Below are positions 1,584-19,457 of a stretch of 48,813 nucleotides of DNA, one piece after another. This DNA comes from a virus. The notes below the pieces were generated by a model, which searched no databases, was not told where the DNA came from, and was given only the letters and a program-made list of their open reading frames with translations. Every line of letters begins with the position of its first letter. Position 1 is the stretch's first letter. Where the stretch lies: IMG/VR virus record IMGVR_UViG_3300030329_001485, positions 1 through 48,813 of that record; one strand, 5' to 3'. Made by a program: the position numbers and the translations under genes.

Positions 1584-2101
1584 TATCTATTTCTTTTGTT
1601 AAATTCTTCAAAGAGCTGTCTGTTACCAGGTCTTTTAATTTTATTAGCTGTTGTTATAGACTTCTTACCAAATCTTTTTTTAATTTTTTTAATTGCACTT
1701 GCAACACCACCCTCTGCTTTATCTTCTCTTGGTTTCTTTTTATCTCTTAATCTTTGTGCAGCTTCTTTGTTTTGTCTATTCATCCTAGCTATTGTTTCTG
1801 CTTCTGACTCTTTTTTTTTAAACTTCTTTCCTATGTTTTCCATTCGTTTTTTAAACAAATCTCCTAGTCCTCTTTCTGTTTTAATTCCTTTTATTATTTT
1901 TGTTTTAGGAGGTTGTGGTCTTGCTTTAAATGGATTTGTAATTCTTTCTGGTGGGAATTGTATAATTTTACCTCTTACGGAATCGATAGCTTTCTGTCTT
2001 GCTTTCATTTTTATTTTTAACAAATCAAGACCTTTAGGCATAAAACCTTTAGCTGCCTTATAGGCGCTGACCATTAATTGTAAAGCTCGTAGATAAGTCA
2101 T
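1583..2101 (-). CDS. Basic GG-motif protein downstream of terminase
   Basis: 172 residues, highly basic. The N-terminal ~45 residues look helical and amphipathic. A central Pro-rich stretch (QFPPERITNPFKARPQPPKT) follows, then a charged coiled-coil-like part (ERMENIGKK to QRLRDKKKP) and AEGGVASAIKK near residue 130. The AEGG element resembles the short GG motifs seen repeatedly in the virion proteins at 30-33.7 kb. It overlaps both neighbours by TAATG junctions and so belongs to the terminase operon. I know similar proteins only as unannotated marine phage proteins. Likely virion-associated; function unknown. Confidence 0.6.
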   Translation of the reverse strand: MTYLRALQLMVSAYKAAKGFMPKGLDLLKIKMKARQKAIDSVRGKIIQFPPERITNPFKARPQPPKTKIIKGIKTERGLGDLFKKRMENIGKKFKKKESEAETIARMNRQNKEAAQRLRDKKKPREDKAEGGVASAIKKIKKRFGKKSITTANKIKRPGNRQLFEEFNKRNR

Positions 2102-3564
2102 TAGTAATAGTTATATGTCTTCTTAGCTTGCGCTTGATCTTTTTCGTCTTCTGGATGCATGATAAAACCTCCCTGTCTAAATCGCATCACGGCTTGAGTC
2201 ATTGAATCTACTAAGTCATCATTATCCCCATAGGGAAATGCTGCACACTCTTCTATCACTTCTTCTGCAAATTTTTCATCGGGCGCCCAGATTTGCCCTG
2301 ACTCAAATAACGGGGCAACGGCGTTTACTCTAGCATGTTTGTCATTTCCTTTGCTAGGTACATAATTTATAACAGGTATCCCCATCTTTCTCAACTCATA
2401 AGTTAAAGGTAATCCAGATGCTTTACCCTCTATGATAACCGTATCAGGATTCCAATACTTCCACTGATCGTAAGCCACCTTCTTAAGATCTGGAAACTCA
2501 AGTCGTTCTTTGTGGGCATCAAGTAGAATTAGATTCGGTCCGCTATCCTCGTTTGGATAAAAGACGCCCCACGTTGTAATAGCAGAATAGTCAGCGGTTT
2601 CTTTTTTGAGGAACGCGGTATCATAAGATTGTATAATGTGTTCTAATTTAGGCACATAACCCTTGTCCCATTCTTTCCACCACTCACGTTTAATAATAGA
2701 TCCTTCTTCTGCTGTTGGGTCTTGCATCCACTGTGCACTCCATTTACCAACCGAGATAGAAGCTTTAACACCTTCAAGTTCGTCTTTCTTCCAATACTCA
2801 GGCCATACAGGATTACCTGATGGAAGTATAGCTGGGAACTCAATGACTTCCCATTGATCTGATTTTAATTCTTTCTGTGCTTTGATCAACGCTCCGGTAA
2901 GATCTTTTGTATTCCATCTAGTCATAACCACTACAATAGAACCACCAGGTTGAAGACGTTGTCTTGGTCCTGATGTATACCATTCATAAGCTCTCTCTAG
3001 TGCTTGTGCGTTCAACGCATCTTGTTCCGAGTGTGGGTCATCGATAATCAGTAAGTCCGCACCACGGCCCGTGATTGCCGAGCCAACGCCGGCTGCGTAG
3101 TATTCACCACCTTGTTCGGTTTCCCATTTACCAGCTGCTTGACTGTCTTCTCTGAGTCTTGTCTTGAACACCTGTTGGTACTCCGCGCTATCAATTAAAG
3201 TTTTAGCTTTACGTCCAAAGCGGATCGCTAATTCAGTTGTGTGAGTTGTTTGTATAATCTTAAGATCCGGTTTACGTCCTACCATCCACGAGGGTAAGAG
3301 ATAAGACGCAAATTCAGATTTAGTATGCCTAGGGGGCATATTAATTATTAGTCGTTTACATTCACCATTTGCCAAACGATTAAATTTTTCAGAAATTTTT
3401 TTATGATGATCACCTTCTATAAATTCAGGCCAGACATGTTTTACAAAAGTAAGGAAATCAGATTTGACTTTGTTTTGAGTTTTCTTCTGGTCAAGTTTTA
3501 TAGCATACTTCATAAACTCTTTACGGACGTCTGATGGAAGCTTGTCTATAATTTCTTGTTTCAT
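2101..3564 (-). CDS. terL: Terminase large subunit (DNA packaging ATPase/nuclease)
   Basis: 487 residues, a normal TerL length. It powers DNA translocation into the prohead and cuts the concatemer. The N-terminal ATPase has a Walker A-like loop MPPRHTKS (76-83) and Walker B LLIIDDPH with D175/D176. The C-terminal RNase H-like nuclease has QSYDTAF (D315), VIIEGKASG (E379) and GDNDDLVDSM (D450/D453). All expected catalytic acids are present. The start at 3564 is followed upstream by ~300 bases of non-coding sequence. The small-subunit candidate is not adjacent: it lies about 5.4 kb away on the other strand (8948-9448). Confidence 0.95.
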   Translation of the reverse strand: MKQEIIDKLPSDVRKEFMKYAIKLDQKKTQNKVKSDFLTFVKHVWPEFIEGDHHKKISEKFNRLANGECKRLIINMPPRHTKSEFASYLLPSWMVGRKPDLKIIQTTHTTELAIRFGRKAKTLIDSAEYQQVFKTRLREDSQAAGKWETEQGGEYYAAGVGSAITGRGADLLIIDDPHSEQDALNAQALERAYEWYTSGPRQRLQPGGSIVVVMTRWNTKDLTGALIKAQKELKSDQWEVIEFPAILPSGNPVWPEYWKKDELEGVKASISVGKWSAQWMQDPTAEEGSIIKREWWKEWDKGYVPKLEHIIQSYDTAFLKKETADYSAITTWGVFYPNEDSGPNLILLDAHKERLEFPDLKKVAYDQWKYWNPDTVIIEGKASGLPLTYELRKMGIPVINYVPSKGNDKHARVNAVAPLFESGQIWAPDEKFAEEVIEECAAFPYGDNDDLVDSMTQAVMRFRQGGFIMHPEDEKDQAQAKKTYNYY

Positions 3565-5368: not shown

Positions 5369-6343
5369 TTAATTTACACTTTGTTTTTCATATTGTAGTC
5401 TTGCCTTAATCTTATCTTCCCTTGATACGTTTTTGTTTTTCATACCTTTAATTAAGTTTGCAAGATTACTAGGGTTATAGATTGTTAAGCCAGTGGAATT
5501 AGTTTTAATTAATTCTGCTTCATCAACATGAACACCCAGTTCAGTTGCAAGTTCGATACCCTCACTTAGATATCTGTATGCTTTCAAACCGATTTTTAAT
5601 TGGTCAGTTTGTTTTATGATACTATCAATCCAAGTTTGATGTGTGCTTACAACTTTTGCTTTTGCCTCTCGCCACATTAAAAAGATTTGATATTCTTTTT
5701 TAGTGCAAGCGATTGCCCTTGACCTGCAATGACTTGTACCAATGACATCAAGTTCAAATTGATTATCAAAAGTTTTAGTCATACCAATGTTATCACAATC
5801 ACTACGATAATGACTTGACCCTTTACCTAAAAACTTATCGTTTGCTTCAATGTGTTTAGTTTTATGTGGGTTGCTATCCTTACCAGATTGCTGTGCAATT
5901 ATATCTGGGTTAAGACCTTTTGCTTTAAGTTCTTCCCTATAATATGCGTGTGCAAAATGTTTACTATCCTCATCACCACCATACTCGTTGCCATTTAGAT
6001 TGCCATACAATCCAAAGTCAAAATGTGATTGAGTTTCTTTTTTCTCACCCTCATTATCAACATCTTCGCTATGTGCAAAGTAAAAGCATTTATCTTTTGC
6101 TACTACATCACATGGGTCGCCATACTTCTTTTTAAACTTTCGTAGTACAGCTACATCATCACTAGGATAAGACCTATTGACAACGGCTTTTGCAACATCA
6201 AAAGCATGTCCTTGCATTTCATTGAAAGTCTCTCTCGCTTCCATGAAACCTTGTCGTTCCTGAGTGTCCTCTTTTTCGAATACATCTTTTATACGATTGT
6301 ATAATTTGTTTCTGTATTCGGTGTTCATACGTATTTTTTGCAT
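5369..6343 (-). CDS. Large early protein of unknown function (324 aa)
   Basis: The longest gene of the early cluster. An N-terminal helical part (RMNTEYRNKLYNRIKDVFEKE) is followed by a polar, Asp/Glu/His/Asn-rich middle (about 95-190) with a FYFAHSED segment, then ELDVIGTSHCRSRAIACTKKEY and a long helical C-terminal part. No signal peptide or membrane segment. The layout faintly recalls Nmad5 (nucleotide-modification-associated) proteins, but I cannot confirm motifs. The ATG at 6343 follows GAAAGGACAAT and a promoter interlocked with that of the divergent 6404 gene. Possibly an early host-takeover protein (inference). Confidence 0.75.
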   Translation of the reverse strand: MQKIRMNTEYRNKLYNRIKDVFEKEDTQERQGFMEARETFNEMQGHAFDVAKAVVNRSYPSDDVAVLRKFKKKYGDPCDVVAKDKCFYFAHSEDVDNEGEKKETQSHFDFGLYGNLNGNEYGGDEDSKHFAHAYYREELKAKGLNPDIIAQQSGKDSNPHKTKHIEANDKFLGKGSSHYRSDCDNIGMTKTFDNQFELDVIGTSHCRSRAIACTKKEYQIFLMWREAKAKVVSTHQTWIDSIIKQTDQLKIGLKAYRYLSEGIELATELGVHVDEAELIKTNSTGLTIYNPSNLANLIKGMKNKNVSREDKIKARLQYEKQSVN

Positions 6344-6403: not shown

Positions 6404-6607
6404 ATGAAAGAAGAAATAAAAAATTGGAAAGATAAAAGAATAAACGCAATTAACAGGAAATTAAAAAAATTTCCTTGTCGTGAGTTACACGAATATTATT
6501 CAGACGAAGTGTATAGAATTTACAACTCACAAGCGAGTAATAAAGAAGAGTACAAAGCCCAAAATGAACACTGTTGTAAATTTACAACATTGACATATCT
6601 GGGATAA
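6404..6607 (+). CDS. Small early protein, predicted leaderless (67 aa)
   Basis: Lys-rich and helical (KEEIKNWKDKRINAINRKLKKF) with Cys residues near 25 and at 57-58. No family recognised. The ATG begins six bases after the -10, so the transcript would start at or within a base of the initiation codon and there is no ribosome-binding site. Its 3' end carries the promoter of the next gene. Small size, early position and divergent control from the 5369 gene suit a regulatory protein, but there is no clear DNA-binding motif. Confidence 0.6.
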   Translation: MKEEIKNWKDKRINAINRKLKKFPCRELHEYYSDEVYRIYNSQASNKEEYKAQNEHCCKFTTLTYLG

Positions 6608-6618
6608 TATAATATAAT
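6590..6618 (+). promoter_or_regulatory. Perfect consensus promoter TTGACA-17-TATAAT
   Basis: TTGACA (6590-6595), 17-base spacer containing GGGATA (6601-6606), TATAAT (6613-6618), then GTTGTT and the ATG at 6625. The predicted +1 is the A of the ATG. It lies within the last codons of the upstream gene. Confidence 0.88.
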
Positions 6619-6624
6619 GTTGTT

Positions 6625-6837
6625 ATGTTAAATAAAGTTCAAATAAAAAAAGTTCTCAAAGTTTTACTAAGAAAAAGTAAAGGTCTTAGTAGACTAGAGA
6701 GAATAGAAGAGATGAGTAGAGGGTTGTCAGCTTTAAATCTGATTGTCTGTCGTGACAAGCGATATAAGGGATTCAGTTTTATTGAAGATTCAACAATCGA
6801 CTACATCGACAGCTTGTTAAAAAGAGCTAGAGTATAA
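6625..6837 (+). CDS. Small basic early protein, predicted leaderless (70 aa)
   Basis: Basic N-terminus (KVQIKKVLKVLLRKSKGLSRLERIEEMSRGLSAL), then CRDKRYKGFSF and a short acidic helix (DSTIDYIDSLLKRARV). The helix-rich basic N-terminal half could bind nucleic acid, but I cannot match a known HTH pattern. It is driven by a perfect consensus promoter with no 5' leader. It immediately precedes the structured, GC-rich non-coding stretch, so that RNA may be co-transcribed with it. Confidence 0.7.
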   Translation: MLNKVQIKKVLKVLLRKSKGLSRLERIEEMSRGLSALNLIVCRDKRYKGFSFIEDSTIDYIDSLLKRARV

Positions 6838-6840
6838 TTA

Positions 6841-7290
6841 AAAGCTTCTAGGTGGGAGACCACCTTTGAGCCCTGATCTATTCGGTATCGCGCCCTTTAC
6901 GGGATAAGCCATATGTCAGGATAGATCTGGGGTCAAGTAGATGTCGCGCGATAAGGTAAAACGCATCGCTTGACCCCTGATCCATTGGTGAGTCCGAACG
7001 CGGGAAGTTTTGGGATTCCGCCTATCAATGGATCTGGGGTCGAGTACACAGTGGCTGGCTGTTAACCACGGCTGGAGTTAAAACTTTGGGGTTGTAAAAT
7101 ATATCCATCTTGAGACTGTGTCGGGCCCAAGCTTTAAGCTTGCGTACCGGCCTGCTATTGCGAAAGCGTAGCTTATACTATGGGTTGTAATGTGATCGAG
7201 TGACTATGTCCCTCCAGTAATCTGATTTGGAGAGGGATCGCCCACAGAGGACCTTACGCAAGCCACAAGCTTGCCACAATTAAATGATAA
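6841..7290 (+). ncRNA. Candidate large structured RNA
   Basis: About 450 bases without a convincing gene. A hand count over 6841-7260 gives 210 of 420 G+C (50%), against 12 of 60 at the early promoter (6361-6420). Stems on the plus strand: AGGTGG-GAGA-CCACCT (6850-6865); CCC-T-GATCTAT (6871-6881) with ATAGATC-T-GGG (6921-6931); GGGGTCAAG (6929-6937) with CTTGACCCC (6969-6977); a 19-position helix 6969-6987 with 7026-7044 (one U-U mismatch, one G-U); CAAGC-TTTAA-GCTTG (7128-7142); GCTA-TGC-GAAA-GCG-TAGC (7154-7172, one bulge); and a bulged stem closed by CTCCA/TGGAG (7210-7235). Two loops are GNRA tetraloops only in the plus orientation. The second and third helices share bases with neighbours, so alternative folds are possible. 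Family not recognised; exact ends unknown. Confidence 0.6.
7260..7275. repeat. Short heptamer NCAAGCN cluster
   Basis: GCAAGCC-ACAAGCT-TG: two adjacent copies of the 7-bp unit that recurs at 7431-7510 and 8296-8461, placed just before the ribosome-binding site of the 7297 gene. Confidence 0.55.
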
Positions 7291-7296
7291 AGGAAA

Positions 7297-7533
7297 ATGA
7301 TGAAAAAAATAACTATAGAAGTGGACCGGGCTACGGATGGCCAGATAAAGACATTGCTGGGAGATCTGGCAATACAGATGGAGCCATGGCAGCGGTACAT
7401 TAAATATAAAATTAAAAACGGAAATACAACCTACAAGCGACAAGCGCTGAAAATGTCCCCAAGAGAATATGGCAAAAAAAAGAAGCTACAAGCGCCAAGC
7501 GACAAGCTTGACAAGTGGAGCATACTGGGATAA
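7297..7533 (+). CDS. Small basic protein with repeat-derived tail (78 aa)
   Basis: The N-terminal ~55 residues look like an ordinary small protein: KKITIEVDRATDGQIKTLLG gives a beta strand and helix, then EPWQRYIKYKIKNG. The C-terminus contains two stretches translated from the 7-bp repeat (YKRQAL, KLQAPSDKLD). Start at 7297 (or ATG at 7300) after AAAGGAAAATG. Its last codons carry the promoter of the next gene. Codon use is richer in G/C than in the early genes to the left. Function unknown. Confidence 0.65.
   Translation: MMKKITIEVDRATDGQIKTLLGDLAIQMEPWQRYIKYKIKNGNTTYKRQALKMSPREYGKKKKLQAPSDKLDKWSILG
7431..7510. repeat. Heptamer repeats inside the 7297 gene
   Basis: Two short runs: CTACAAGCG-ACAAGCG (7431-7446) and AGCTACAAGCG-CCAAGCG-ACAAGCT-TG (7484-7510). 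The unit is NCAAGCN with a strict 7-base period. Confidence 0.75.
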
Positions 7534-7536
7534 TAT
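7508..7536 (+). promoter_or_regulatory. Promoter TTGACA-17-TAATAT with GGGATA
   Basis: TTGACA (7508-7513), 17-base spacer ending in CTGGGA, TAATAT (7531-7536); GGGATA at 7527-7532. The sequence from CTGGGA through TAATATAATATAA closely copies the 6590-6618 promoter, so the element was probably duplicated. Its -35 is part of a heptamer-repeat run. Confidence 0.8.
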
Positions 7537-7560
7537 AATATAAAACAGAAAGGATAAAAT

Positions 7561-7749
7561 ATGAAATACTTTGTAATGAGAAAAATGAAATACATGCGTG
7601 GCCAAGAGCACGACATGCCAGCCAACGAAATGTGCAAGAACGGGTTCGCGGACCTGCAGAAGGCAAAGATGGCTAAGGCTGCTTTAGAGCACTTAGAATT
7701 TAGGCCTGATATGGTGAGCTTTATCATCGTTCAGGAGGTACAACAATGA
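7561..7749 (+). CDS. Small hypothetical protein (62 aa)
   Basis: Charged and helical with several Met: MKYFVMRKMKYMRGQEHDM, then NGFADLQKAKMAKAALEHLEF, ending in a beta-like SFIIVQEVQQ. The start is preceded by AGAAAGGATAAA, the same ribosome-binding block as the early minus-strand genes. The last four bases overlap the next gene (ATGA), so the cassette 7561-8464 is translated as a unit. Function unknown. Confidence 0.7.
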   Translation: MKYFVMRKMKYMRGQEHDMPANEMCKNGFADLQKAKMAKAALEHLEFRPDMVSFIIVQEVQQ

Positions 7750-8205: not shown

Positions 8206-8464
8206 GCGTAAATACTACAACCTGATCAAAGTGATTCATGAAGAGTGGTGCGCGAAGAACGGTTACCCAACCGGGCGCAAACCATTCTTTACCAGCGGCA
8301 AGCTACAAGCGACAAGCGCCAAGCTCCATCCTAACGATCTCCTGGACTCAGAGAATGCTACGCGATTCGTTGAGAGCGCCAAGCCACAAGCTACAAGCGT
8401 CAAGCTACAAGCGACAAGCTACAAGCTTCAAGCGTCAAAGGGAAGGTCAAGCAACAAGCGCTGA
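8195..8464 (+). CDS. Basic protein with heptamer-encoded tail (89 aa)
   Basis: Start at 8195 (MAARRKYYNLIKVIHEEW), with GGAG just upstream; an ATG at 8180 would add five residues. The first ~35 residues look like a genuine helical domain ending YPTGRKPFF. From residue ~36 on, the sequence is a translation of the 7-bp DNA repeat (KLQATS, YKLQAS), low-complexity and probably unstructured. The 3' end overlaps the convergent nuclease gene by 37 bases. The tail is probably a by-product of repeat insertion. Function unknown. Confidence 0.6.
   Translation: MAARRKYYNLIKVIHEEWCAKNGYPTGRKPFFTSGKLQATSAKLHPNDLLDSENATRFVESAKPQATSVKLQATSYKLQASKGRSSNKR
8296..8325. repeat. Heptamer repeat run
   Basis: GCAAGCT-ACAAGCG-ACAAGCG-CCAAGCT: four in-register copies of NCAAGCN inside the 8195 gene. 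Confidence 0.8.
8375..8461. repeat. Main heptamer repeat array (~9 units)
   Basis: From GCGCCAAGCC through AAGCG: units CCAAGCC, ACAAGCT, ACAAGCG, TCAAGCT, ACAAGCG, ACAAGCT, ACAAGCT, TCAAGCG, then a decayed end. The period is 7 bases, so three units make seven codons. Two plus-strand frames remain open through the array, giving YKLQATS-like and YKRQATS-like heptads. Confidence 0.85.
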
Positions 8465-8912: not shown

Positions 8913-8945
8913 TTGACTTGTACGTTAGATTACGATATAAGTCAA
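8913..8945. promoter_or_regulatory. Interlocked divergent promoters for terS and the 8908 gene
   Basis: Plus: TTGACT (8913-8918), 17 bases, TATAAG (8936-8941), ATG at 8948. Minus: TTGACT (8945-8940), 17 bases, TACAAG (8922-8917). The arms TTGACTTGTA and TATAAGTCAA form a near-perfect inverted repeat. The geometry matches 6369-6402 but lacks GGGATA. Confidence 0.75.
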
Positions 8946-8947
8946 GT

Positions 8948-9448
8948 ATGGGACTTCCAAAACAATTGACAGAACGACAAATTAAATTTGCAGAGTTATT
9001 GGTATATAACGAGGGCAGAAAGAGTGCAGCTGAAGCAGCTTATGAGGCTGGTTACAAGACAAGGCCTAGACAAGCAGCATCAGAACTCAGGAATCCTAGA
9101 GTATCTCCACTTGTAGTAAAATACATTGGTGAGTTAAGAGCAGAAGTGCAAGAGAAGTTTGGTATTGATCTTGGTAGACATCTTGGTGAACTTGCAAAGT
9201 TAAGAGATGATGCAATGAAAAAAGGTGCATGGTCTGCAGCCATAAACGCAGAGGTAGCCAGAGGTAAAGCCGGTGGACTTTACGTTGATCAAAAACTTAT
9301 ATTGTCTGGTAATTTAGATAATATGTCAGAAAAAGAATTGGAAGCCAAGATGGCCAAGATTCTAGATGATCATAAATCATTAATAGATATTACCCCAGAA
9401 GAGTCACGACAAGAATCAGGAACAAAACAGCTCCCTGTATCCGATTAA
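8948..9448 (+). CDS. terS: Terminase small subunit, predicted leaderless
   Basis: 166 residues. The N-terminus LPKQLTERQIKFAELLVYNEGRKSAAEAAYEAGYKT is the helix-turn-helix of Terminase_2-type small subunits, followed by ASELRNPRVSPLV and a helical oligomerisation part. TerS binds the packaging site and regulates TerL. The ATG at 8948 is preferred to an upstream in-frame start because the upstream one lies inside the promoter; the -10 ends six bases before this ATG, so the mRNA should be leaderless. It is unusual in being on the opposite strand and about 5.4 kb from terL. Confidence 0.85.
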   Translation: MGLPKQLTERQIKFAELLVYNEGRKSAAEAAYEAGYKTRPRQAASELRNPRVSPLVVKYIGELRAEVQEKFGIDLGRHLGELAKLRDDAMKKGAWSAAINAEVARGKAGGLYVDQKLILSGNLDNMSEKELEAKMAKILDDHKSLIDITPEESRQESGTKQLPVSD

Positions 9449-10559: not shown

Positions 10560-11251
10560 TAGTCTTTTCCTTTCAGTTCTTCGTAGTATTCATCCACTCG
10601 TTTTAAAAATTTGTGCATATACTTTTTCATCTCAAGTCCTTGTATAATAAACTCTTGATAGAAGTTGTCTTTACTGCACATCATAATCACACCTTTACTA
10701 ATACTTGTTTGGTATACGTAATTGTGTGCCATTGTATAAGCTGCTAACTGTATACAATAATCTTCAATCCACTCACGTCTCTTTGGTTTATTAGTTTGCT
10801 TGAAGTCTATTACTGCTAGATCACCTTTATGTAATCCAATTAAATCTGTTTGTCCTGCGTATAACCCAGGATAATATAAGGTTGCCTCTGACCCGTAATA
10901 TTCTGAAACATTACAAAGCCCCTCTTGTATAACTTTTATAGCCATGTTGTGTGCTTCTTTACCTACTTCTGTTTGGTCCAGATAACCTTGTTCTAAAATA
11001 TATTTTTCCAATATCTTGTGCATCGCTGTACCTCTGGCACCAGATGTAGCCACGATCCTCGCTGCGTTCTCCTCGCCTTCTCGTTTACGCCAGTTGGCCA
11101 ACGATTCGCGCTTCTCGGCTGACTGTGTGGCACCCAATATCGTAGTCACACTAGGTAGTTTCCATTTACCACCATCGATGTCATAGTGTCGTTTACCGTC
11201 GATCGTTGTTCTAACGGTCTTCGGATAGATGTAAGAATTATTATGTTTCAT
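10559..11251 (-). CDS. RecB/Cas4-like PD-(D/E)XK exonuclease
   Basis: 230 residues. Motifs in order: LPSVTTILG (~33-41), GTAMHKILEKY (~94-104, the motif-I His), YAGQTDLIG (Asp), LAVIDFKQTNKPKR (D..x-K catalytic core), and IQLAAYTMAHN (QLAAY motif). This set is diagnostic for RecB-family nucleases of phages and Cas4. Probable role: host DNA degradation or end resection for recombination. It overlaps the upstream gene by 11 bases and the downstream gene by 1. Some local codons near 11040-11170 are GC-richer than their neighbours. Confident in family, less in role. Confidence 0.85.
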   Translation of the reverse strand: MKHNNSYIYPKTVRTTIDGKRHYDIDGGKWKLPSVTTILGATQSAEKRESLANWRKREGEENAARIVATSGARGTAMHKILEKYILEQGYLDQTEVGKEAHNMAIKVIQEGLCNVSEYYGSEATLYYPGLYAGQTDLIGLHKGDLAVIDFKQTNKPKRREWIEDYCIQLAAYTMAHNYVYQTSISKGVIMMCSKDNFYQEFIIQGLEMKKYMHKFLKRVDEYYEELKGKD

Positions 11252-11486
11252 CGTTTCCCTTAAAAAATTTTTTTAAGTGGGCTCGATACTCTTCTTCCGA
11301 GTGTTCTTCAAACCGAATCATATCGGTAGGGAGATCTCCGTCGCGCTCGGTACTCGTCTCCTCTACCGCCGGGCCTCGTCGCTCCCCTTTCGGATCATCG
11401 CTTAGGTCCAGTGAAACGCCTTTGGCAGAATGTGTACCCCTATCCCGGTCAACCTGTTTAAATTTTATTCTTTGTTTTATTGACAT
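11241..11486 (-). CDS. Small charged hypothetical protein (81 aa)
   Basis: Start at 11486 (MSIKQRIKFKQVDRDRG); an upstream in-frame start would add an implausible Cys/Met stretch. Basic N-terminus, then an acidic Ser/Asp/Glu-rich, probably disordered centre and a helical end (SEEEYRAHLKKFFKG). The DNA around 11330-11410 is noticeably GC-rich (CGTCGCGCTCGG, GCCGGGCCTCGTCGC) relative to both sides. It overlaps the nuclease start and may be its partner. Function unknown. Confidence 0.6.
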   Translation of the reverse strand: MSIKQRIKFKQVDRDRGTHSAKGVSLDLSDDPKGERRGPAVEETSTERDGDLPTDMIRFEEHSEEEYRAHLKKFFKGNDET

Positions 11487-11590
11487 AGTTTTCTCTAAAA
11501 AGTTTAAGCATTGCACCATACGCGTACACTGCATTATATTTTTTCTTCTTTCCTTTTCTTTTTCTTTCCTTGTTCATTTGAGACATAGAT

Positions 11591-17746: not shown

Positions 17747-17949
17747 GTGTAATCCCTTTCGATTATCATATCAATATAGTGCTTAGCTTTAAGAAGGTCC
17801 TCTTTCCCACCTTTTTTTGATGCTCTCACTATATATTTTATAGCGTTCCCCTCCGCAAATTGCAACCTATTCTTGTTAATAAATTCTGCTGGCTGAATGA
17901 CAAAATCCTGGTAGTGTTGTCCTCCAATTTGTTTTTTTAATGACTTCAT
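17743..17949 (-). CDS. DUF3310 protein (68 aa)
   Basis: Matches the short DUF3310 pattern: QIGGQHYQDFVIQPAEFINKNRLQFAEGNAIKYIVRASKKGGKEDLLKAKHYID, with conserved HY, EGNAIKY..R and DL.KA..Y. Such proteins are frequent in phage replication or nucleotide-metabolism operons; the biochemical function is not established. Overlaps polymerase and helicase genes by 4 bases each, indicating coupled translation. Confidence 0.85.
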   Translation of the reverse strand: MKSLKKQIGGQHYQDFVIQPAEFINKNRLQFAEGNAIKYIVRASKKGGKEDLLKAKHYIDMIIERDYT

Positions 17950-19457
17950 AATATATAAGCTCGATCAAAGTTCTTTGGATCTAACACATGCAGTTCACGC
18001 TTCGCTCTCGTCGCTCCAGTATAGAATAATCTATGTAATTCATCAGGGTCATGACTAAAAGTTTCTAACGCTGCATTGGTCAGATCTTGCATAAGCAAAA
18101 CCTTGTCGGCTTCTCCTCCTTTTGCTCCATGTATTGTTGACATAATGATACGCGGATTTTTGTTTATCTGTTCTCCATTCGCCCGCATGTTACGAATGTA
18201 GTTTTCTGTGATAGTATCTAAACCATCAAAGGCCTCATACCAAACATCTGAGGTAACCAAACCATGCTCAGCTCTACAATCTTTAATTAAATATTTTGTA
18301 TCAGAATGCAAAGTTTTACCAGATCTAAAACCAGGCAAGACTTTATCACCAAGATATTCGTATATATTTTTTATCTCTACAGTGTTTAAAATTTTTTCGT
18401 CTTTACGCCATTTCTCCCAGTTATTTAAAGCTATCAAAAGTTTTAGTGGCACAGAATTACACCCTTTGTGTTGATAATACCAACCTTGTAATTCACATAA
18501 ATCTTTTACGTCATCAAGGAAATGATTGGCTGAAGACAGGACCAACCAGTTCCCCTTTGACATGTTAACCTGTGTAACATCAGAATATCTTTTAAGTATT
18601 CCATGTTCAGTTCTAGGTTTATAATCTTTATCAAATCTATTTTGTACTTTACTAATTATCTTTTGTGATAGTTCGTGTATAGGTCCACCTGGTATTCTAT
18701 ATGATTGATCTAATACTTTGATGTCATTGACTTCTGTTTTCAACGCAATAAAATGATCAACGTCTGCACCGGCCCATTTGAATATAGCTTGATCATCATC
18801 TCCAGCAATGTAAGTTTTCTTTGCGTTTGTCCACATTGATCTAACCATGTCCCATTGTATTAAAGACAAGTCTTGTGCTTCATCAATAAACAATGCTTCA
18901 AAGTTTGGTTTGTTTTCTTGTGCAATGAATTCTTCTAGTAAGTCTGTAAAATCTTTTAGTCCTTTTTCTTTTTTATATCTTTTAAGTTCTTCGGATAATA
19001 AATAAAGTGTATCTCTTTCTATATCTAATATGTTCTGTCTAGAGTCATAGTATTCTAACAGGTCCATACGTTTAACCCTAGCTGTATTCATAATAGTTAA
19101 ATATTCATTATCAGAATTAAACGTGCCATCATCCTCTGAATGTTTACCTGTTTTTATGGGAATGCCAACTAATTTTCCAAACTCTTTATAATCTTCACTG
19201 GTCATCATCTTTTCTTTAGTCATAGCCAGACGACTAAAAGCAAAAGAGTGTAAGGTTCTAAAGTTTTCTAAATCTTTTTCTGCATCAAGACCAAACTTTT
19301 CAGCTGCTCTTGTTGCTGCTTCTCTTGCTGCTTTTCTAGTAAAAGAAAAGTATCCTATTTGTTTTGGCCTAATCCCCCGTTGGATGAATTGATCTACTAA
19401 ATTCAATAACGTTGTTGTCTTCCCTGTCCCCGGTGGGCCTAGTATTATAGTCTTCAT
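17946..19457 (-). CDS. UvrD/Rep-like superfamily 1 DNA helicase
   Basis: 503 residues. Walker A LGPPGTGKTTTL (residues ~6-17), motif Ia-like YFSFTRKAAREAATRA, motif II LFIDEAQDLS, motif III-like AGDDDQAIFKWAGA, motif IV LDQSYRIPGG, motif V STIHGAKGGEADKV and motif VI YTGATRAKRELHVL. This complete set defines an active SF1A helicase. Shorter than cellular UvrD, lacking much of the accessory 2B domain. Probably unwinds DNA at the phage fork, since no DnaB-type helicase is visible in the window. Confidence 0.92.
   Translation of the reverse strand: MKTIILGPPGTGKTTTLLNLVDQFIQRGIRPKQIGYFSFTRKAAREAATRAAEKFGLDAEKDLENFRTLHSFAFSRLAMTKEKMMTSEDYKEFGKLVGIPIKTGKHSEDDGTFNSDNEYLTIMNTARVKRMDLLEYYDSRQNILDIERDTLYLLSEELKRYKKEKGLKDFTDLLEEFIAQENKPNFEALFIDEAQDLSLIQWDMVRSMWTNAKKTYIAGDDDQAIFKWAGADVDHFIALKTEVNDIKVLDQSYRIPGGPIHELSQKIISKVQNRFDKDYKPRTEHGILKRYSDVTQVNMSKGNWLVLSSANHFLDDVKDLCELQGWYYQHKGCNSVPLKLLIALNNWEKWRKDEKILNTVEIKNIYEYLGDKVLPGFRSGKTLHSDTKYLIKDCRAEHGLVTSDVWYEAFDGLDTITENYIRNMRANGEQINKNPRIIMSTIHGAKGGEADKVLLMQDLTNAALETFSHDPDELHRLFYTGATRAKRELHVLDPKNFDRAYIL

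Follow-up and report, generated by a model that had tools for sequence, protein, structure and literature searches.

Within a viral DNA of 48,813 nucleotides, hereafter the window, the stretch at positions 6841-7290 almost certainly represents a real class of structured noncoding RNA of HTVC023P-type pelagiphages, as judged from sequence comparison. A large structured noncoding RNA had been predicted here from the letters of the window, and relatives indeed showed strong compensatory change, which exceeded chance in the frame hairpin (H1), the insert stems, the alternative helix S2, the three-way-junction domains, and the hairpin at the 5′ end. Both the class and its build, in which fixed frames hold exchangeable folded inserts, are apparently categorically new, and a known mechanism could lie behind them; we know of no RNA family built in this way.

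The structured region and its genomic setting

The stretch comes from an HTVC023P-type pelagiphage, that is, a SAR11 phage, and the best matches of one large protein of the window were phage 023Pt_psg01 and the Pelagibacter phages HTVC027P and HTVC023P. The structured stretch sits between the genes for the large and small terminase subunits, on the strand of the latter (Table 1). In the tabulated relative loci, the arrays of frames were always located 5′ of the small terminase gene and on its strand; L111 carried an additional array copy on the opposite strand.

A recount gave 50.0% G+C for 6841-7260, exactly as first reported, compared with 36.0% for the whole window, and the 49-50% G+C of 6841-7290 was matched by just 3.3% of 450-base segments. 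The stretch is gene-free as claimed, since no plus-strand ORF runs across it and each plus frame contains 8-9 stops. Both GNRA tetraloops noted earlier, GAGA at 6856-6859 and GAAA at 7162-7165, were found in place. The four GATC(T)GGGG-type elements were also correctly located, but they are not independent repeats: they form the arms of two hairpins of one frame, 6865-6937 and 6969-7044. The predicted plus-strand fold was borne out, with an energy of -161.2 kcal/mol (z = -3.3) that none of 100 dinucleotide shuffles equalled; the minus-strand fold of the same stretch was weaker (z = -2.7).

Table 1. Positions of the features discussed, in window coordinates
Feature	Position	Strand	Details
Large terminase gene	2101-3564	minus	phrog_38
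Sigma70-type promoter nearest 5′ of array	6590-6618	+	TTGACA 6590-6595, 17-base spacer, TATAAT 6613-6618; regular-expression scan
Small ORF between promoter and array	6625-6837	+	sequence
Leading hairpin, GAGA tetraloop	6850-6865	+	AGGTGG-GAGA-CCACCT; sequence, fold
Frame hairpin H1a	6865-6937	+	arms 6865-6878/6924-6937; G.G 6870/6932, U.U 6874/6928
Insert A1 in H1a	6879-6923	+	recurs in L091, L099
Alternative helix S2	6929-6937 with 6969-6977	+	predicted transcription intermediate; S2 helices covary in relatives
Insert B1, enclosed by S2	6938-6968	+	recurs in L051, L098
Frame hairpin H1b	6969-7044	+	arms 6969-6982/7031-7044; U.U 6978/7035
Insert A2 in H1b	6983-7030	+	recurs in L001, L002
Insert B2 and closing bases	7045-7128	+	ACACAGT/ACTGTGT, then GGGCCC; recurs in L097, L132
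Three-way-junction domain (C)	7138-7264	+	outer stem 7140-7146/7254-7261, GAAA-tetraloop hairpin 7162-7165, helix GGGU/GCCC, two inner hairpins
Small terminase gene	8918-9448	plus	phrog_51

The promoter call in the window is a consensus match only. This perfect TTGACA-17-TATAAT site stands so near the ATG of ORF 6625-6837 that the mRNA of this ORF may be leaderless. In relatives, a hairpin other than that at 6850-6865 precedes the array. Many of them have the start of the RNA directly behind TTGACA...TATATT, with the hairpin TTAGGAAT-insert-AGTCCTTT, whose insert stem covaries (103/156 versus 65, maximum 84). On reading by eye, inserts of this 5′ hairpin reappear elsewhere as A or B inserts, for example in L135/L003 and L119/L139.

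Several further elements neighbour the arrays. Upstream of arrays in L009, L013, L084, and others, a dyad, TTGACAAA-n-TTGTCAA, contains the -35 box of the array promoter, arranged as if for repressor binding. A palindrome, TTTAGAATNATTCTAAA, adjoins many arrays on their 5′ or 3′ side (L006 2480-2490, L014 3480-3490, and others) and looks like an operator. Tandem heptads (CAAGCNN)n occur in the window at 7489-7507, 8299-8324, and 8380-8433, as well as at many array loci. Neighbouring CAAGC pairs numbered 1207 at spacing 7, as compared with 112 at most at any other spacing, and heptad runs numbered 317 on the array strand versus 4 on the opposite one. They occupy the interval from the array to the small terminase gene, frequently immediately ahead of a TTGACA box, and are candidates for packaging sites, activator sites, or RNA-binding repeats.

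Frame hairpins, inserts, and competing helices

In relatives fetched via the neighbouring gene, a hairpin CTTGAGCCCTGATC-insert-GATCTGGGGTCAAG recurred at the locus in one to several copies. The complete frame reads CUUGAGCCCUGAUC-insert A-GAUCUGGGGUCAAG-insert B-CUUGRCC, with conserved U.U and G.G mismatches. Scanning viral contigs for both arms yielded at least 119 stretches. A tolerant scan of the fetched loci returned 240 frame copies, as against 5 on reversed or complemented sequence, all of these with at least 6 mismatches.

Because choosing loci by the motif itself was to be avoided, we used 80 loci fetched by the gene at 5369-6343, of which 55 were independent and had enough sequence. 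H1 was present in 50 of these 55. Nearly all of the 70 distinct copies obtained had the arms CTTGAGCCCTGATC/GATCTGGGGTCAAG; 62 retained the U.U mismatch and 60 the G.G mismatch, and pair 12 covaried (A-U in 54, G-C in 14). In the remaining five loci, reading by eye revealed H1-like hairpins beyond the limits of the scan in L199, L195, and L218, a junction domain within an H1-like stem in L226, and a divergent hairpin in L177. The same motif was found in two sequenced phages, 023Pt_psg01 and the cultured HTVC027P. In the latter, the arms differ yet both pairings are kept (ACTGATCCC/GGGATCAGT, then ACTGATC downstream), and the predicted RNA would span about 17,760-18,150 on the minus strand of MN698241. 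HTVC023P gave no match in the tolerant frame scan or in the junction-domain model search.

The insert stem adjoining the frame was nearly always paired despite differing sequence. Indeed, over six pairs in 88 non-redundant inserts, 410 of 528 were Watson-Crick, versus 202 +/- 10 after re-dealing. In the first five pairs, G-U outnumbered A-C by 37 to 7, an excess that indicates single-strand folding of the plus strand and thus points to the terminase-strand RNA as the folding one. GNRA loops numbered 11 on the plus strand versus 0 on the minus strand, counts too small to stand alone.

The 294 distinct inserts (165 A and 129 B) fell into 196 families, 141 of them seen once, and 17 families occupied both A and B positions. 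The Chao1 estimate for A inserts was ~341 families, with loose clustering underneath. Insert A2 of the window was identical over 46/46 nt in L001 and L002, where it stands within another frame and the small terminase is only about half identical to that of the window. Likewise, L097 and L132 carry B2 with 98% identity over 84 nt. As far as these sequences go, the insert library is large and open-ended, with identical inserts reappearing in more than one position.

The original prediction also held that two stems are mutually exclusive, and this was upheld: one strand pairs with both its neighbours, relatives covary, and predicted co-transcriptional folding agrees. The S2 helix (GGTCAAG with downstream CTTGRCC) uses the 3′ arm of H1, so that one strand is common to two helices, and its covariation reached 241 versus 140, the maximum of 1000 shuffles being 170. 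All transcript prefixes tested that end at or before 7020 gave pairing 6929-6937/6969-6977 a predicted probability of 1.0. With the prefix extended to 7050, this had dropped to 0.0, the alternative standing at 0.97, and imposing the pairing on the full stretch cost 3.1 kcal/mol. A co-transcriptional switch is therefore predicted, wherein S2 would form first and S1 once the 3′ arm of the second hairpin has been transcribed.

Homologues of the junction domain at 7138-7264 were found in six loci (L063, L104, L127, L130, L153, and L156); 12 of its 34 pairs covaried, and 0/500 shuffles scored as high. Other phages carry two more subtypes, located ahead of H1, and all three share one predicted topology. 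Covariation scores were 0.402 versus 0.172 and 0.314 versus 0.128 for two subtypes tested, neither value being reached by any of 500 shuffles. A model of one subtype detected a second subtype, as well as L130 and, weakly, L104, which both have that of the window. The same model also matched HTVC027P beside its H1 (E = 0.0012), and its search gave no match in most loci. By eye, L195 combines the outer part of one subtype with an inner stem resembling that of another.

Comparison with known RNA families and elements

The covariance-model search proposed with the prediction was carried out, and revealed nothing beyond chance in the region. No family of Rfam 15 matched 6841-7290 at the gathering threshold, four chance-level matches alone appeared there at E<=10, and a search of 29 relatives found no family. 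As claimed earlier, no tRNA or tmRNA is present, ARAGORN finding neither. Ribozymes, pRNA, and riboswitches were set aside, as they gave no Rfam match. Elsewhere in the window, Rfam reported Flavobacterium-1 RNA (RF02976; 11325-11448, minus strand, 84.8 bits), unexpected in a pelagiphage and overlapping ORF 11241-11534.

The stretch had been suggested to be of the GOLLD/ROOL kind or a new class; the new class stood and the membership did not. At gathering score, the window matched none of the GOLLD, ROOL, and OLE models of Rfam 15, and neither did 6600-7600 at E<=10. GOLLD and ROOL are often encoded near tRNA islands and form RNA-only nanocages. Like the pelagiphage RNA, GOLLD is a large structured RNA encoded by phages, and ROOL a large structured RNA encoded by phages and prophages. 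The pelagiphage RNA differs from both in lacking an Rfam match, from GOLLD by the absence of a tRNA in the window and by its repeated frames and interchangeable inserts, and from ROOL by the absence of a tRNA island and by short modules in place of one conserved fold. It does not appear to be ROOL or GOLLD. The functions of these two RNAs are unknown, and GOLLD has a less conserved 5′ region next to its conserved part (PMC12286853).

BLASTN of the region or array against GenBank phages gave no real match, so that homology is visible only via the short arms and structure. When 84,980 bacterial and archaeal genomes were scanned for the exact motif, it turned up in just three contigs, of which two carry a SAR11 label and one comes from an Actinomycetota MAG. 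The terminase genes of the phage group were established for L139 (the MAG) and L140 (SAR11) only, L141 being the third; host mimicry with the exact motif was therefore not seen. Since the array of L139 (PBPX01000001.1) stands with those terminase genes, this contig probably stems from a pelagiphage and was assigned to the wrong genome in binning. We found no paper on such an RNA in pelagiphages among open-licence papers, and the terms ncRNA, non-coding, and intergenic are absent from the main text of PMC12753301.

Other elements share part of the build. Integron attC sites have conserved ends around a variable self-complementary centre, a mismatched stem, and cassette exchange, all of which recall the frames. 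However, the attC R box pair RYYYAAC/GTTRRRY expected at hairpin ends was not in the arms of the 70 motif-independent copies, the G-U excess and promoters point to RNA, and there are no gene cassettes. Type III toxin-antitoxin RNA repeats and HK022 put RNA are likewise repeated or paired structured RNA elements of phages; the pelagiphage RNA differs from them by having no Rfam match, no adjacent toxin gene recognised, and inserts that are not mutual repeats. Dispersed mobile hairpins of the REP/MITE kind were rejected, as the two frame copies of the window both lie at one locus within 48.8 kb and the arrays of relatives lie between terminase genes.

Possible function

Our best guess, to which we give somewhat less than an even chance, is a trans-acting multivalent RNA scaffold or decoy. 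In this view, a noncoding RNA of large size and modular build would be made as such, in the direction of the small terminase gene. Comparison shows that its fixed base frames are the promoter-adjacent 5′ hairpin in many relatives, H1, S2, and the three-way-junction domains, and that the variable inserts on these frames preserve their pairing and reappear in different frames and phages. The conserved, mismatch-marked base helices would act as repeated grips to which a single partner binds, probably a protein of the host or the phage: one partner is suggested by the identity of the grips, and variable targets by the exchangeability of the tips. The array would make the RNA multivalent while interchangeable tips vary further targets, and S1/S2 competition would set folding order during transcription. 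Such an RNA would act in trans in early to middle infection. Counted against this explanation are the rarity of intrinsic terminators behind the array, the missing match in HTVC023P, and the ORF that in the window, at variance with many relatives, lies between promoter and array. A bolder version, which we hold to be rather unlikely, is an RNA analogue of a hypervariable display scaffold, whose base helices would be gripped by one partner and whose tips would be continually exchanged from a shared pool of hundreds of families.

It is unlikely, albeit conceivable, that the array is instead a cis-acting leader, that is, the 5′ or intergenic mRNA part of the small genes that extend as far as the small terminase gene; it would control termination, translation, or decay, and S1/S2 would be its co-transcriptional switch. 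The arrays of the tabulated loci do lie upstream of these genes on the same strand, a folding switch is predicted, and two HTVC027P genes that adjoin the array on its downstream side, gp33 and gp34, show high expression at 6-9 h (PMC12753301). Intrinsic terminators 3′ of the array are also few: they were found in 5/104 loci, versus 24 on the antisense control, and are therefore too rare to demonstrate a separate transcript. On the other hand, the first downstream gene belongs to 39 families among 109 loci and a promoter-like site intervenes in 60, which makes control of one gene by the array unlikely, and insert variation without visible limit is unnecessary for a single-gene switch.

That the structure exists for its own sake, with frames that, for example, stabilise or protect a transcript and inserts that are neutral filler spread by recombination, seems improbable to us. 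The predominance of insert families seen once and a conservation of frames far above that of inserts fit this idea. Near-identical inserts in other phages speak against it, although recent transfer could also explain them, as does the covariation that preserves the structure of the junction domain.

We consider a packaging RNA working like phi29 pRNA very improbable. The position between both terminase genes and the three-way junction resemble that system, but the pelagiphage RNA is modular and has no Rfam match, the phi29 pRNA model included, its junction domain escapes model detection in most loci, and its phages have a small terminase, whereas phi29 is not known to have one. Least probable of all is a DNA-level element with hairpins as recombination, replication, or packaging sites: inserts are exchanged, repeats lie close to terminase genes, and single-stranded DNA could likewise prefer G-T over A-C, but the strand-specific G-U excess rules out a cruciform in which both strands count, and both the GNRA loops, confined to the plus strand, and the promoter directly ahead of the 5′ hairpin argue for RNA.

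HTVC023P-type phages are the most abundant known group of SAR11-infecting ocean viruses, and it seems that a structured RNA sitting at one locus throughout the group has so far escaped notice. Not contained in the original prediction were the modular and repeated nature of the RNA, its synteny with the terminase genes, and its occurrence across the whole phage group. Expression can be checked at once, as there exist a cultured phage with its host and public directional RNA-seq of HTVC027P on HTCC1062 (PRJNA1253180). If the hypervariable display scaffold were true, the RNA could meet changing host or competitor factors.
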